DNA of 52,493 bases from an uncultured Bacteroidia bacterium (GTDB taxonomy: Bacteria > Bacteroidota > Bacteroidia > Bacteroidales > UBA932): positions 1 through 52,493 of the forward strand of contig CACYCP010000012.1 in the NCBI GenBank assembly GCA_902772985.1, written 5' to 3'. A program made the position numbers and the translations under genes. A model generated the notes under the pieces. It did not search any database and was not told the DNA's origin. It was given only the letters and a program-made list of their open reading frames with translations. Positions 40,803 through 47,687 of the stretch are shown here, piece by piece; position 1 is the stretch's first letter; every line of letters starts with the position of its first letter.

Positions 40803-43800
40803 ATGACAGAGATATTGAAGGATTTGAACGAAGAGCAGCGAAGGGCTGTGGAGTGTTCGGACGGGCCGGTTCTCATTGTAGCTGGAGCAGGGTCGGGAAA
40901 AACGCGCGTCCTCACTTCCAGAATAGCTTATCTGATTGCCCGAGGGGTACCTCCCGAGCGAATCCTTGCGCTCACTTTCACGAAGAAGGCGGCAGGGGAG
41001 ATGAAGGAAAGGATAGGCCTCATGGTAGGGGAGCGTCAGGCAAAAAGGCTTTGGATGGGAACCTTTCATTCTGTATTCGTCCGTTTCCTCAGGGAATTTG
41101 CTCCGCTGCTGGGTTTTCCCCAGACATTTACTATCTACGATACCACAGATTCTGTCAGCGCCATCAAAACTTGCATCCGCCAGCTTTCCCTGGACGAAAA
41201 GATATACAAGCCCAAAGAGGTCCTCTCCCGCATTTCCCGGGCCAAGAACGACCTTATCACCCCTACGCCCTACATGAACGGAGCAGGTGGATACAGGGAA
41301 AACGACACAAGGCAGAAGAAGGGGGAAATATACCGCATCTTCGCGCTCTACTGCCAGATGTGCAAGAACTCCGGCGTGATGGATTTCGACGACATCCTCC
41401 TTTATACCAATATTCTCTTAAGGGATAATCCCCAGGCTCTGGAGTCCATCGCAGGCCGATTCTCACACATTCTGGTGGACGAGTACCAGGACACGAACGC
41501 CGCCCAGTACATTATCCTGAAAAGACTGTCCTCGACTCACAGGAACCTTTGCGTGGTGGGGGATGATTCCCAGTCCATTTACGGCTTCCGCGGCGCCCAA
41601 ATCGCGAATATCCTGAATTTTCAGAAGGATTTTCCGGAGGCAAGGATCTTCCGCCTGGAAAGGAATTACCGTTCCACCCAGACCATAGTGGATGCCGCCA
41701 ACGCCCTCATAGCCCATAACCAGGGACGCATCCCCAAGAACTGCATTTCCACCGGGGAAAAGGGCGAAAAGATACACCTTGTCCGAAACTTTACAGAACA
41801 GGAGGAAGCTTTCACAATAGCATCGGCCATACAGGACAGGCTGCGCAGCAGCCATTGCAGTTATCGGGATTTTGCTATCCTTTACAGGACAAATTCCCAG
41901 TCCAGGGCCTTGGAAGAGCAGCTCCGGCGCCGCAATATTCCTTATATGGTTTATTCCGGGAACACCTTTTTTGAAAGGGCCGAAGTCAAGGATATGATGG
42001 CCTATTTCAAACTGGCGGTCAATCCTAACGACGATGAGTCGTTCCGCCGTGTGGTAAACAAGCCTGCAAGGGGGATAGGTGACACCTCCATGCATTCGCT
42101 TCAGGCGGCTGCCCTTTCAGAGGGGATATCGCTTTCCCGTGCCGCATTCCTCCCGAATCTGGAAGAATTCGGCCTGAAAAGTGCCGCCATCGGCAAGATA
42201 AGGGCGTTTTGCCAGATGATGCAGGGCGCTATGGACAAGGCCCAGCTTCCCGATGCCTACGACCTCGCGGTAGAACTGGCGAATGACAGCGGCCTTTATC
42301 AATATTACAAATCCGACACTTCGGTGGAGGGGCAATCGCGCATGGCCAATGTCCAGGAACTCCTGGACAGTGTAAAAGGCTTCGTGGAAGAGGCCGAGGG
42401 TGAAGTTACCCTTGGGGATTACCTGGAAGACATTTCCCTCCTTTCAAATGCCGATACTGCCGATGACGATGAAAACGGCAGTAACAAGGTGGCCTTGATG
42501 ACAATCCATTCCTCCAAAGGATTGGAATTCCCTTACGTATTTGTGGCCGGGATGGAGGAAAACCTTTTCCCCTCCGTCGGTTGGCTGGCCGATGTCAAGG
42601 AAATGGAAGAGGAAAGGCGGCTCTTCTATGTTGCAATTACCCGGGCCATGAAAACCGTGACACTTACTTTCGCCTCCACAAGGATGCGTAACGGCAAACA
42701 CGAAAGCAACTCTCCCAGCCGTTTCCTGCGGGAACTGGCGCCACAGTATCTGGACAGGCCTTTGACCAATGTGGATATGGAGCAGGATTACAGCGCTGAA
42801 AGTCCCTTCCGTTTTGCATCCAGAAAGTGGACGGCTCCCGTGCAGAGGCCTGCGGCCCCTCTTTCATCATCAAAACCGGTTTCAAACATTCCGGTGAAAC
42901 CTGCGCTTGTCGATCCTGATTTCAAGCCAGAGGCGATGACCAGTTTCAAGGCGGGGGACAGGATAGAGCATAACCGTTTCGGGGCGGGGGAAATCCTTGA
43001 AATAAGCGGCCAGGTCCCTGATCTGAAAGCCAAAGTCTCTTTCGATAAATATGGGGTAAAACTGCTCCTGCTGAAGTTCGCGAAACTTCGTCACCTGCTA
43101 CCACTTATTACTATCTGCTTCCTGATAGCCTCCTGCGGGGTCGTTCGCCCTAGAAATGCCCCATACTATCATGCCGGTCCGGCGGAAAAAGCCGGTTACG
43201 AGCATCAGGGAATCTTGGAAGAGCACCATTATCCCTGTAGCGAGCCAGGGCTCACCACCCGTCGCATGATTGTTTATCTTCCGGCCGATTATTACAAGGA
43301 TACCACTGTCCGTTACCCGGTGTTTTACCTCCTGCACGGCGCCAGGGGCTATGAAACTTCGTGGATTAAAAAGGGGAGTGTGCTGGAGATTACAGACAGC
43401 CTGCGCGCCAACAATCTGGTAATTCCAAGCATCATCGTTATGCCCAATACCAACCAGTACAACGACGACAACGATTATGATGACGGTCGCTACAAGGACG
43501 CTTTTGAATCCATTTTCGAGGTGGACGGAAAGGTGGAAAGGGCTTTCCTTCACGATGTGGTGGAATATGTGGACAGTGTTTACCGCACCGTGCCTGAATC
43601 CACGCACAGGGCCATAAGCGGCCTTTCCATCGGCGGGCATCAAAGTCTGCACCTTGCCGCCTTTTATCCTTATACCTTTTCTTACATTGGAGCCTATTCC
43701 CCTTATTGGTGGAGCCTTGGAAAACTTAAGCACAGAAGACTTTTCTACCGGGATTTCAAAGAGCTGTTGGCAACGCAGTTCAAGATTAACCCGCCGATCC

Positions 43801-43994
43801 GCTACTATCTTATGACAGGCGATGTGGATATAGTGCGTCCTTCGACTGCAAAATTCTGCCGTTATCTGGACAAGAAAGGCTATGAGCATGAGTATGTTAT
43901 CCTTCCCGGAGGGCACGACTGGCCTTGTTGGAAGGCCAATCTCATACTTATGATGGAAAACGCCTTCAAAGGAAAAGAAACAAATGAAAACTGA
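40803..43994 (+). CDS. UvrD/PcrA-type helicase fused in frame to a lipoprotein-like esterase
   Basis: 1063 residues in one open frame. Residues 1-762 are an SF1 helicase: Walker A GAGSGKT (28-34), DEYQDTN (Asp226-Glu227), LERNYRSTQTI, MTIHSSKGLEFPYVF and VAITRAMKTV, ending in VSFDKYGVKLLLLKFAKL, which looks like the normal C-terminus of Bacteroidota PcrA. From about residue 763 a lipoprotein signal (LLPLITICFLIASC, Cys778) is followed by an esterase-D/feruloyl-esterase-like alpha/beta hydrolase with YPVFYLLHGARGYETSW, nucleophile Ser942 in ISGLSIGGH and His1038 in LPGGHDW. No stop, ATG or GTG separates the parts. Either the stop was lost, or internal (CTG) initiation makes the exported enzyme. 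The last bases overlap the next gene by 11. Confidence 0.8.
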   Translation: MTEILKDLNEEQRRAVECSDGPVLIVAGAGSGKTRVLTSRIAYLIARGVPPERILALTFTKKAAGEMKERIGLMVGERQAKRLWMGTFHSVFVRFLREFAPLLGFPQTFTIYDTTDSVSAIKTCIRQLSLDEKIYKPKEVLSRISRAKNDLITPTPYMNGAGGYRENDTRQKKGEIYRIFALYCQMCKNSGVMDFDDILLYTNILLRDNPQALESIAGRFSHILVDEYQDTNAAQYIILKRLSSTHRNLCVVGDDSQSIYGFRGAQIANILNFQKDFPEARIFRLERNYRSTQTIVDAANALIAHNQGRIPKNCISTGEKGEKIHLVRNFTEQEEAFTIASAIQDRLRSSHCSYRDFAILYRTNSQSRALEEQLRRRNIPYMVYSGNTFFERAEVKDMMAYFKLAVNPNDDESFRRVVNKPARGIGDTSMHSLQAAALSEGISLSRAAFLPNLEEFGLKSAAIGKIRAFCQMMQGAMDKAQLPDAYDLAVELANDSGLYQYYKSDTSVEGQSRMANVQELLDSVKGFVEEAEGEVTLGDYLEDISLLSNADTADDDENGSNKVALMTIHSSKGLEFPYVFVAGMEENLFPSVGWLADVKEMEEERRLFYVAITRAMKTVTLTFASTRMRNGKHESNSPSRFLRELAPQYLDRPLTNVDMEQDYSAESPFRFASRKWTAPVQRPAAPLSSSKPVSNIPVKPALVDPDFKPEAMTSFKAGDRIEHNRFGAGEILEISGQVPDLKAKVSFDKYGVKLLLLKFAKLRHLLPLITICFLIASCGVVRPRNAPYYHAGPAEKAGYEHQGILEEHHYPCSEPGLTTRRMIVYLPADYYKDTTVRYPVFYLLHGARGYETSWIKKGSVLEITDSLRANNLVIPSIIVMPNTNQYNDDNDYDDGRYKDAFESIFEVDGKVERAFLHDVVEYVDSVYRTVPESTHRAISGLSIGGHQSLHLAAFYPYTFSYIGAYSPYWWSLGKLKHRRLFYRDFKELLATQFKINPPIRYYLMTGDVDIVRPSTAKFCRYLDKKGYEHEYVILPGGHDWPCWKANLILMMENAFKGKETNEN

Positions 43995-45369: not shown

Positions 45370-45645
45370 ATGAAAAAAAGCACAATCACCCCCTGGAGTT
45401 GGATAAGCTTGCAAGCCCACCATTCTCTTGCCAAGGACAAGCATAGCAGCCTTACGGTGGCGGTTTGCGTCCACGATACGAATCAAGCCATAGCAATAGG
45501 CCTGAGCCTGCCGCCTGCCGTTTTCGAATCGGCCAAACAGGTTCTTATCTATCAAAAGACCGGCGATTCAATCGTGAGGAATCTTTCTTCAAAGAATATC
45601 CGTCCTTTCGGTATGATTTCGCAGTGCAGCGAAATGCTTCCTTAA
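45370..45645 (+). CDS. Small hypothetical protein
   Basis: 91 residues starting MKKSTITPWSWISLQAHHS and ending ISQCSEMLP, 12 bases after the fucosidase stop. No signal peptide, membrane segment or known motif is recognised. The composition is protein-like (helical middle LSLPPAVFESAKQVLIYQ) and the start has a purine-rich upstream (gtggagaagaacc). It may be a real small gene or a remnant; there is no further evidence. A promoter for the next genes lies just after it. Confidence 0.35.
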   Translation: MKKSTITPWSWISLQAHHSLAKDKHSSLTVAVCVHDTNQAIAIGLSLPPAVFESAKQVLIYQKTGDSIVRNLSSKNIRPFGMISQCSEMLP

Positions 45646-45659
45646 TGAGAAATATTTAC

Positions 45660-45667
45660 TATATTTG
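45660..45667 (+). promoter_or_regulatory. Candidate -7 element (TATATTTG) of the steroid-reductase-like cassette
   Basis: TATATTTG lies 30 bases before the ATG at 45698 and gives the two reductase genes their own start of transcription. A three-codon frame (ATG GAT TTG TAA) sits in the leader directly before the start codon. Confidence 0.5.
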
Positions 45668-45697: not shown

Positions 45698-46468
45698 ATG
45701 ATATCCTTTCAAGCATTTAACATTTTTCTTATAGTAATGAGCGCCATAGCGGCGGCGGTTTTCGTGGTCCTTTTTTTCGTGGATGCCGGCTATGGAAAAT
45801 TTTATCAGCCCAAGTGGGGCCCTTCAGTGGACAACCATTTGGGATGGTTCCTTATGGAAGTGCCTGTGTTCATTGCAATGCTGGTGCTTTGGTGGCTTTC
45901 TCCAATACGTTCCGACAGCACTAGAGTGGTTTTCCTGCTTCTTTTCGAACTTCATTATTTCCACCGCTCATTCATTTTCCCTCTCCGGCTTCGCGGACAT
46001 AGCCGTATGCCCCTTTCAATCATCTTGATGGGTGCCCTTTTCAATACTCTTAACGCTTTCATGCAAGGCGGTTGGATATTTTACTTCTCACCGGTGAACT
46101 ACTATTCAGGCGGATGGCTCACCAGCGTTCCGTTCATCACCGGTACGGCTTTGTTTTTTGCCGGTTTGTACATAAACATTCAGTCCGACAACATCATACG
46201 CGACCTTCGCAAACCCGGAGACAGCGCACATTATCTTCCGAAGGGTGGTATGTTCCGTTTTGTGACCAGTGCCAACTACTTTGGCGAATTTGTGGAATGG
46301 GTGGGTTTCGCTATCCTTACCTGGTCCTGGGCCGGAGCGGTATTTGCGTTTTGGACCTTTGCTAACCTGGCACCTCGTGCGGCTCGGATTTACGACCTTT
46401 ACCTTAGTGAATTCCCTGGACAAATTGATACTACAAAAACTAGGCGGATGATTCCGTTTATTTTCTGA
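45698..46468 (+). CDS. Steroid 5-alpha-reductase (3-oxo-5-alpha-steroid 4-dehydrogenase) homologue
   Basis: 256 residues, integral membrane with about seven hydrophobic segments. The C-terminal third carries the family signature: LPKGGMFRFVTSANYFGEF, then VEWVGFAILTWSWAGAVFAF, FANLAPRAARIYDLYLSEF and a final RRMIPFIF. This is the pattern of SRD5A1-type enzymes, which use NADPH to reduce the C4-C5 double bond of 3-keto-4-ene steroids to the 5-alpha product. The length is normal for the family. It is one base upstream of an old-yellow-enzyme gene, so the two are an operon. In known gut Bacteroidota, 5-alpha-reductases act on bile acids and steroid hormones; activity here is inferred. Confidence 0.88.
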   Translation: MISFQAFNIFLIVMSAIAAAVFVVLFFVDAGYGKFYQPKWGPSVDNHLGWFLMEVPVFIAMLVLWWLSPIRSDSTRVVFLLLFELHYFHRSFIFPLRLRGHSRMPLSIILMGALFNTLNAFMQGGWIFYFSPVNYYSGGWLTSVPFITGTALFFAGLYINIQSDNIIRDLRKPGDSAHYLPKGGMFRFVTSANYFGEFVEWVGFAILTWSWAGAVFAFWTFANLAPRAARIYDLYLSEFPGQIDTTKTRRMIPFIF

Positions 46469-46469
46469 G

Positions 46470-47687
46470 ATGATTGATTCGCAAGTATTTACTCCTGTTA
46501 AGATTGGGCCGATAAGCCTTCGAAACCGAGTTATACGCTCGGCTGCTTTCGAGAATATGGCCTACGACAACAAGCCTTCACAGGACCTTTTCGACTACCA
46601 CCAGGCTGTCGCACGCGGAGGAGTCGGCATGACCACGCTTGCATACGCATCTGTCAGCCAAAGCGGCCTGTCCTTCAAAGGCCAGTTGTGGATGCGGGAG
46701 GAGATAGTTCCCGCTCTCAGGCAAATCACTGACGCCGTGCATGCCCAGGGTGCAAAATGCTCCATCCAACTGGGCCATTGCGGCAATATGACTCACCGAT
46801 CCACTTGCGCTTGTATGCCCATGGGCGCTTCCGGAGGCTTTAACATCTATTCGCCAACCTTCGTGCGCAAAATGTCGCTGAAAGACATAGACAAGTTGGT
46901 GGAAGATTTCGGCATTGCAGTGAACCTGGCTCGCAAGGCAGGCTTCGACTGCGTAGAGATTCATGCTGGCCACGGATACCTTATCAGCCAGTTCCTTTCA
47001 CCCTATACAAACCATCGTCGCGACGAGTATGGCGGCTCGCTGCAAAACCGTATGCGCTTGATGCAAAGGGTTATCCGGCGTGTGCTTGAGGCTGCGGCCG
47101 ATGACATGGCGGTAATTGTCAAGATGAACATGCACGACGGTTTCCGCAGCGGAATGCAGCAGGAGGAATGTCTAGAAGTGGCAAAGGAATTGGAAAGGCT
47201 GGGTGTCCACGCCATAGTGCTGTCGGCCGGATTTGTGAGTAAAGCTCCAATGGAGGTGATGCGCGGAGCCATGCCGCTTCGCACGCTGGCCTATTATACT
47301 GATTGGCGTACGATGTGGTGGTTCAAGGCTTTGATGCCCATCGCCGGCCGCATTCTCATTCCAAGCGTTCCTTATAGCGAGGGCTATTTCCTCGAGGAGG
47401 CAAAACTTTTCAGGGCTGCTTTAAAACTCCCTCTCATATACGTGGGCGGCCTTGTTTCGCTCGACAAGATGGAAGAGGTGCTCTCTGAAGGTTTCGATGC
47501 CCTTCAGCTTGCTCGTGCGCTTATTCATGATACGGATTTTGTGAATAAACTCCACAGCGGAGAGATTACGCGCAGCGGCTGCCGCCATTCGAACTACTGC
47601 ATAGCCCGTATGTTTACGCTGGATATGAAATGCAGCGAATGCGTGCCTGACCTTCCTGCCAAACTTCGCCGCGAGGTGGAAAATTAA
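46470..47687 (+). CDS. Old-yellow-enzyme family flavin oxidoreductase (steroid/bile-acid ene-reductase candidate)
   Basis: 405 residues. The FMN TIM barrel begins FTPVKIGPISLRNRVIRSAA and includes IQLGHCGNMTHRS, EIHAGHGYLISQFLSPYTN and RRDEYGGSLQNRMRL, close to the 2,4-dienoyl-CoA reductase/BaiCD-like clade. It stops near a Cys-containing segment (GCRHSNYCIARM then MKCSEC), so it may hold an iron-sulfur centre, but the C-terminal NAD(P)-binding domain of BaiCD/DCR enzymes is missing. It therefore may need another electron source. It follows the 5-alpha-reductase homologue by one base. A 5-beta-reductase or delta-1/delta-6 ene-reductase role is plausible. Confidence 0.78.
   Translation: MIDSQVFTPVKIGPISLRNRVIRSAAFENMAYDNKPSQDLFDYHQAVARGGVGMTTLAYASVSQSGLSFKGQLWMREEIVPALRQITDAVHAQGAKCSIQLGHCGNMTHRSTCACMPMGASGGFNIYSPTFVRKMSLKDIDKLVEDFGIAVNLARKAGFDCVEIHAGHGYLISQFLSPYTNHRRDEYGGSLQNRMRLMQRVIRRVLEAAADDMAVIVKMNMHDGFRSGMQQEECLEVAKELERLGVHAIVLSAGFVSKAPMEVMRGAMPLRTLAYYTDWRTMWWFKALMPIAGRILIPSVPYSEGYFLEEAKLFRAALKLPLIYVGGLVSLDKMEEVLSEGFDALQLARALIHDTDFVNKLHSGEITRSGCRHSNYCIARMFTLDMKCSECVPDLPAKLRREVEN

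Follow-up and report, generated by a model that had tools for sequence, protein, structure and literature searches.

A one-base-apart steroid 5-alpha-reductase and old yellow enzyme gene pair in an uncultured Bacteroidales genome is probably the reductase core of a split steroid/bile-acid module

A 52,493-nucleotide stretch of DNA from an uncultured Bacteroidia bacterium (positions 1 to 52,493 of contig CACYCP010000012.1, assembly GCA_902772985.1; hereafter the window) carries, one base apart on the same strand, open reading frames for a homologue of steroid 5-alpha-reductase (5AR) and for an old yellow enzyme (OYE). This is a real and conserved pair of an already described kind in a split layout, its genes being filed with the 5AR and the 5-beta-reductase/dehydrogenase (5BR) families, and we consider it probable that the two genes form the reductase core of the known Bacteroidales steroid/bile-acid module, which converts 5-beta 3-oxo steroids into 5-alpha products by way of a 3-oxo-delta-4 intermediate. 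In such a module the OYE, as the 5BR, would interconvert 5-beta 3-oxo steroids and the 3-oxo-delta-4 intermediate, which the membrane 5AR, using a conserved Glu54/Tyr87 pair and a nicotinamide cofactor, would reduce to the 'flat' 5-alpha (allo) form. The 3-position would be worked on, before or after these steps, by a hydroxysteroid dehydrogenase of the short-chain type whose gene is on another contig of the source genome (G000:C49:190-957). As a whole, the module would alter how rings A and B are joined in steroids, secondary bile acids for example, or would simply reduce 3-oxo-delta-4 steroids.

A module of this composition is not without precedent. According to extracts of PMC10382948, the 5AR gene of Parabacteroides merdae shares a cluster with genes for a predicted 3-beta-hydroxysteroid dehydrogenase and an NADH:flavin oxidoreductase, disruption of that 5AR prevented the formation of allolithocholic acid derivatives, and the role of the flavin enzyme is called hypothesised. 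In the Bacteroidota scheme given in extracts of PMC9645264, the 5BR oxidises 3-oxo 5-beta bile acids to the 3-oxo-delta-4 form, which the 5AR reduces to the 5-alpha form; reduction at C3 completes the scheme (PMC9645264, PMC10382948), and the same three enzymes appear in extracts of PMC12697870 and PMC11271093. The window pair fits this published model by family, gene order, and co-occurrence. As in the isoallo-bile-acid cluster of P. merdae and Odoribacteraceae (Sato et al., 2021, as cited in extracts of PMC10382948), an SRD5A-like 5AR is followed directly, on one strand, by a flavin oxidoreductase, and a short-chain dehydrogenase of the cluster-linked type is also present in the source genome; here, however, the dehydrogenase lies on another contig, and directly after the pair comes a GH92 gene of opposite orientation. 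A preliminary description of the locus had likewise read the two genes as a steroid/bile-acid reductase pair, a view that the SRD5A similarity and the strong conservation of the pair support at the level of sequence.

The assignment of both proteins to their families is clear. The 5AR is the only match to Pfam family Steroid_dh (PF02544) found in the genome (107 contigs, 88% complete), at 1.9e-40 and 138.8 bits against a curated cut-off of 22.6, and the OYE is the only match found there to Oxidored_FMN (PF00724), at 1e-55 and 189.8 bits against a cut-off of 27; together with the stretch TSANYFGEFVEWVGFA at 5AR residues 190-205, these matches confirm the SRD5A signature and OYE motifs that the preliminary description had pointed out. 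In phmmer searches of the PDB, the 5AR is similar over nearly its full length to a bacterial SRD5A (7c83, 1.6e-48) and to human SRD5A2 (7bw1, 2.1e-42), and it matches a very-long-chain enoyl-CoA reductase at 1.4e-4 only. With human SRD5A2 numbered from an alignment with the PDB sequence, assuming a 4-residue tag, 9 of 13 inspected positions agree (Glu57, Tyr91, Arg94, Asn160, Asp164, Arg171, Asn193, Glu197, and Arg227), and Arg114, Tyr178, Arg179, and His231 differ. Arg114 and Arg179 differ in 7c83 as well, Tyr178 is replaced by His in all 93 5ARs of the OYE-linked clade and is Tyr in all 18 of a second Bacteroidales clade described below, and His231 gives way to Ile or Leu in 92 of the 93.

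That the 5AR homologue is instead a fatty-acid, polyprenol, or DUF1295-type reductase, with the OYE an unrelated neighbour, seems very improbable. A weak DUF1295 match (1.1e-4) does stand beside the Steroid_dh match, and in our tree an enoyl-CoA reductase row, on a branch of length 6.9, is left unseparated from SRD5A rows; but the similarity to SRD5A is more than 40 orders of magnitude stronger than that to the enoyl-CoA reductase, the equivalents of Glu57 and Tyr91, which we take to be the catalytic pair of SRD5A2, are invariant in 93 of 93 proteins, and pairing with an OYE is near-obligate in the genus. The tree in question was a quick one (SH-aLRT support only, named OYE-clade rows thinned to 32 of 80, root unsure). 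It places 46 OYE-clade rows on one side of a branch (SH-aLRT 87), splits five weak Steroid_dh relatives from the 5ARs at a supported branch, and clusters two SRD5A rows and the enoyl-CoA reductase row beside the second clade, with very long branches leading to the human SRD5A and enoyl-CoA reductase rows. The check proposed in the preliminary description, whether the 5AR groups with fatty-acid or DUF1295-type reductases, is thereby answered in part: the scores are SRD5A-like and the weak Steroid_dh relatives stand apart, whereas the tree alone does not separate SRD5A from enoyl-CoA reductases. A window 5AR that is SRD5A-like rather than enoyl-CoA-reductase-like is supported, and 5-alpha reduction is its predicted activity.

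Lacking an NAD(P)-binding C-terminus, the OYE had been suspected of being a variant or minimal form. Among 89 loci with an OYE, from which six cut or short proteins were dropped, all 83 full-length OYEs, the window's included, are of single-domain size (about 385-414 residues, counted from the first aligned residue); the single domain is therefore the norm in this family, and the idea of a minimal form was rejected. Near the C-terminus lies a motif of three Cys and one His (Table 1) at the position of residues of 2,4-dienoyl-CoA reductase that we take to be ligands of a 4Fe-4S cluster. The pattern C-x-H-x-[ND]-[YF]-C-x10-C is present in 82 of the 83 proteins, the exception stopping just before the last Cys, and C371, H373, C377, and C388 are invariant in the 31 rows of alignment A7. 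C371 and C377 align with C334 and C341 of 2,4-dienoyl-CoA reductase 1ps9 in a weak phmmer stretch (i-Evalue 6.6), and C388, which lies past that stretch, is paired with 1ps9 by spacing alone. Relative to the Cys4 arrangement, the second Cys is gone and an invariant His stands beside its place; the Cys4 iron-sulfur motif CxxCNxxC occurs in none of the 83.

BaiCD and the Firmicutes steroid 5-beta-reductase ci2350 of Clostridium innocuum have a two-domain build, and a Cys4 motif together with a C-terminal FAD/NAD(P) domain defines the class to which they and 2,4-dienoyl-CoA reductase belong. The window OYE shares the OYE barrel with them, but it lacks the FAD/NAD(P) domain, carries CxHx3Cx10C instead of Cys4, and so falls outside that class. 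Its Tyr170 aligns (phmmer) with Tyr166 of 2,4-dienoyl-CoA reductase, which extracts of PMC12238238 match with Tyr167 of ci2350; in an indirect mapping through 1ps9, its Gly169 and Gln174 stand where ci2350 has Asn166 and Ser171, a difference that sets it apart from the ci2350 clade as described there. The predicted structure (mean pLDDT 86, with 53-58 across the motif region) has among its best PDB matches 2-naphthoyl-CoA reductase, YqjM-type OYEs, trimethylamine dehydrogenase, and 2,4-dienoyl-CoA reductase. The His165/His168 pair is presumably that of YqjM; unlike YqjM-type ene-reductases and 2-naphthoyl-CoA reductase, however, the window OYE has the C-terminal CxHx3Cx10C stretch and a steroid-cluster context.

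YqjM-type single-domain OYEs commonly take NAD(P)H directly. The resemblance of the OYE model to this type would suit a purely reductive pair, in which the 5AR and OYE act as parallel 5-alpha- and 5-beta-reductases of 3-oxo-delta-4 steroids (hormones or diet enones), perhaps as an electron sink or in detoxification, and a Clostridium innocuum OYE does act in this way on progesterone (extracts of PMC12238238). Yet a single gene pair that makes two opposite stereochemistries from one substrate is difficult to account for if neither enzyme works backwards, and the published Bacteroidetes scheme, as extracted from PMC9645264, has the 5BR oxidising. We regard this alternative as rather unlikely.

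Conservation of the pair provides further evidence. In a genus sample of 91 genomes that includes the source genome (cut-offs E <= 1e-40 for the 5AR and E <= 1e-80 for the OYE), 44 carry the 5AR, 45 the OYE, 43 both, and 45 neither (Fisher p 2e-22, uncorrected for relatedness), the exceptions being one genome with the 5AR alone (G027) and two with the OYE alone (G035 and G378). In all 43 paired genomes the 5AR and OYE genes lie side by side on the same strand, with 6 to 117 bases between matched ends; the preliminary description had asked whether the pair is conserved in relatives, and 43 of the 44 5AR-bearing genus genomes carry an adjacent OYE. Across the order, a 5AR homologue at E <= 1e-20 was found in 63 of 295 genomes. 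Among named loci, taken as the best 80 of at least 580 contig stretches encoding 5AR relatives, an OYE lies within 600 bp downstream on the same strand in 74 of the 79 with room, and smaller, partly overlapping surveys found the pair in 21 of 24 loci (the window's included) and in 25 of 29. Named loci with the pair include those of Butyricimonas (Odoribacteraceae), Alistipes, Barnesiella, Coprobacter, Heminiphilus, and a Parabacteroides metagenome-assembled genome (MAG); two loci figure under two ids each (L069 = L149, L125 = L150). In one Butyricimonas locus (L080:9106-9855), the gene preceding the 5AR encodes a CDGSH / Fer4_19 iron-sulfur protein, possibly an electron carrier for the OYE, and a look-alike was noticed by eye before the cluster in L118.

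The third component of the published module, the dehydrogenase, is where the window departs from its relatives. In relatives, the OYE gene mostly precedes a gene for a classical short-chain dehydrogenase (SDR1, which Pfam assigns to adh_short in the three copies scanned), and a further such gene (SDR2) often comes next. Of the best 80 named loci, 74 have enough room to look for it; 69 of these 74 carry a short-chain dehydrogenase on the same strand no more than 5 kb away, and 65 of the 74 have one of type SDR1. Neither SDR1 nor SDR2 is found in the window, where the OYE ends against the GH92 gene. The earlier remark that the pair stands without a hydroxysteroid dehydrogenase thus holds for the window and fails for the genome, in which contig C49 carries an SDR1 homologue at E 4.3e-101 (next best 2.4e-30). 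A quick, midpoint-rooted tree of 56 selected rows (36 cluster-linked copies, 12 from genomes without a 5AR, five copies located elsewhere in their genomes, two from an OYE-only genome, and the C49 copy, the other dehydrogenases of the source genome having been left out) groups the C49 copy with seven cluster-linked copies of the same genus (SH-aLRT 96), and the dehydrogenases of 5AR-less genomes fall outside this set. Because of this grouping, the C49 gene is most likely the cluster's own dehydrogenase, moved, and the absence of a dehydrogenase at the genome level was rejected; its action on steroids is a prediction from that kinship. In the genus (SDR1 cut-off E <= 1e-50), the 43 paired genomes have SDR1 within 5 kb in 20 cases, solely elsewhere in 21, and not at all in two (contig ends uncorrected).

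Two further features of contig C49 may be recorded here. The dehydrogenase gene, near the contig end, overlaps the end of a PAP2-phosphatase gene (L162:1-1892), and the contig ends beside it in a 45-residue open stretch without a Pfam match, which to us reads like the end of an IS30 transposase.

Several observations weigh against the pair being the core of a bile-acid module. SDR1-type genes also occur in 16 of the 45 genus genomes without the pair, and none of the five other 'elsewhere' copies groups with the cluster-linked ones, those of G003, G004, and G018 falling among the dehydrogenases of 5AR-less genomes and those of G344 and G347 forming a separate long branch; a dehydrogenase elsewhere is therefore not general proof of a shared pathway, and our confidence in the module is slightly lower as a result. 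The source assembly, at 1.8 Mb, is fragmented and incomplete, as its contig count and completeness given above indicate. The OYE falls far short of the BaiCD model NF041087 (195.5 bits, cut-off 825), and its best NCBIfam model, a mycofactocin OYE, gives 208.9 of 793 bits. Five of the 79 named loci have no OYE within 600 bp (L074, L082, L090, L097, and L103), that of L097 lying 1.9 kb from the 5AR. Orthology to the characterised P. merdae proteins is argued from family and gene order. Finally, five of the 21 organ-naming titles of named loci point to the rumen, reticulum, or abomasum, foregut compartments in which one would not readily expect bile acids as the substrate.

These titles make up 21 of the 80 (16 hindgut and 5 foregut), one more names faeces, and the RUG codes in four further titles presumably denote rumen genomes. 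The foregut pairs (L070, L078, L086, L125, and L131) are found in reticulum, abomasum, or rumen MAGs, that is, in compartments before bile entry. Their occurrence leaves room for other sterol-like substrates, and perhaps the same chemistry naturally serves 3-oxo-delta-4 triterpenoids of the foregut or diet, plant sterols and saponin aglycones among them. The foregut titles would favour such substrates, as would the second 5AR clade, paired with an extended short-chain dehydrogenase in 13 of 18 loci and with 3Beta_HSD matches in the three copies scanned; set against this, known members act on bile acids (extracts of PMC10382948) and 16 of the 21 organ-naming titles are hindgut. We judge natural substrates other than bile acids unlikely. 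A term search of the main text of a rumen bile-acid paper (PMC11193847) did not find '5AR', '5BR', or '5alpha-reductase', and a search of an open-access library on 5alpha-reductase in rumen Bacteroidales returned one paper, on chicken isolates. Among the 10 papers listed of 277 on bile acids and 5alpha-reductase, none carried the name Cryptobacteroides, possibly the genus of the window.

The second clade was drawn from 28 genomes of the order with weaker 5AR matches (E above 1e-100), of which 19 were examined (L163-L181). Its 5ARs are 35-40% identical to that of the window. No OYE was matched in the 7-13 kb around these 19 5ARs, and a weak SDR match was seen at two of the loci. In 13 of the 18 loci with a correctly called 5AR, a related extended short-chain dehydrogenase (324-382 residues) lies directly upstream on the same strand. 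The three scanned have PF01370 as their best Pfam family and match 3Beta_HSD at 6e-15 to 9e-27; two scanned against NCBIfam match HpnA and SdmB below the cut-offs, and the nearest PDB entry for one is a 'putative oxidoreductase', so that specificity for steroids is tentative. The second-clade 5AR and its dehydrogenase are candidates for an enzyme pair that converts delta-5 sterols to 5-alpha stanols. It is tempting to speculate, although we hold the idea as doubtful, that the two 5AR clades differ in what supplies the 3-oxo-delta-4 steroid: the OYE-linked pair, seen in many gut MAGs, would be an A/B-ring epimerase whose single-domain OYE, with its metal-site-like CxHx3Cx10C motif, acts as a 5-beta-dehydrogenase, and the 3-beta-HSD-like dehydrogenase of the other clade would oxidise delta-5 sterols in a candidate anaerobic route to 5-alpha stanols.

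Table 1. Features of the 5AR–OYE locus, in window coordinates.
Feature	Position	Strand	Description
TATATTTG	45660..45667	+	Candidate Bacteroidota-type -7 promoter element, sequence read directly, 30 bp before the 5AR start
5AR gene	45698..46468	+	SRD5A-type steroid 5-alpha-reductase, 256 residues
Codon of Glu54	45857..45859	+	Equivalent of human SRD5A2 Glu57; invariant in 93/93 OYE-clade and 18/18 other-clade rows
Codon of Tyr87	45956..45958	+	Equivalent of human SRD5A2 Tyr91; invariant in 93/93 OYE-clade and 18/18 other-clade rows
Signature TSANYFGEFVEWVGFA	46265..46312	+	5AR residues 190-205, read directly
OYE gene	46470..47687	+	Single-domain old yellow enzyme, 405 residues; likely 3-oxo-delta-4-steroid 5-beta-reductase/dehydrogenase (5BR)
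C371-x-H373-x3-C377-x10-C388 motif	47580..47633	+	OYE C-terminus, in the place of the 2,4-dienoyl-CoA reductase 4Fe-4S ligands

The layout of the locus agrees with the preliminary description, which had placed the two genes one base apart behind a TATATTTG box; both open reading frames and the box were found. The box conforms to TAnnTTTG, which we take to be the Bacteroidota -7 consensus. This pattern is not enriched across the window (29 found against 23.4 expected, the mean of shuffles), and 8 of 13 relatives inspected have it in the 50 bp upstream of the 5AR; in four of these 8 it begins just 11-12 bp ahead of the aligned start, a short distance for a promoter. A local promoter, from which the pair might be co-transcribed, is plausible.

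The neighbours of the pair in the window, by open reading frames and Pfam, are an alpha-L-fucosidase, an esterase, and the GH92 gene, whose end overlaps that of the OYE gene by four bases at their stops. The preliminary description had found this sugar-enzyme setting unusual, and the fucosidase, esterase, and mannosidase-family (GH92) genes are indeed present. The esterase, however, is not a separate gene: it is the C-terminal part of a 1063-residue open frame (window 40803-43994) in which a UvrD/PcrA helicase runs on into a PF00756 esterase without an intervening stop and in which there is, near 43098, what we take to be a lipoprotein-like signal. Nor is the setting common to relatives. In tblastn searches of 93 related loci with the window fucosidase, esterase, and GH92 as queries (matches of at least 50 bits, up to 7 kb from the 5AR), esterase-like genes were found in three (directly upstream in L145, more distant in L126 and L144). 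L133 alone has a fucosidase-like gene, which immediately precedes the 5AR, and no locus has GH92; because these neighbours almost never recur, a conserved tie of the pair to any of them was rejected. A 91-residue open reading frame between the fucosidase and the 5AR (45370-45645) gave no match in a Pfam scan.

If the pair is indeed the core of the known module, then a large genus, with the pair in 43 of 91 sampled species genomes, and some foregut MAGs carry a module tied to immune- and pathogen-relevant bile acids. Searches that require an adjacent dehydrogenase would miss about half of the genus pairs (23 of 43, contig ends uncorrected). The swap of partners between 5AR clades can help to trace, from genomes, the supplier of the delta-4 intermediate. 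Should our speculation on the two clades hold, the OYE, with its site of three Cys and one His, would stand out among steroid flavoenzymes.

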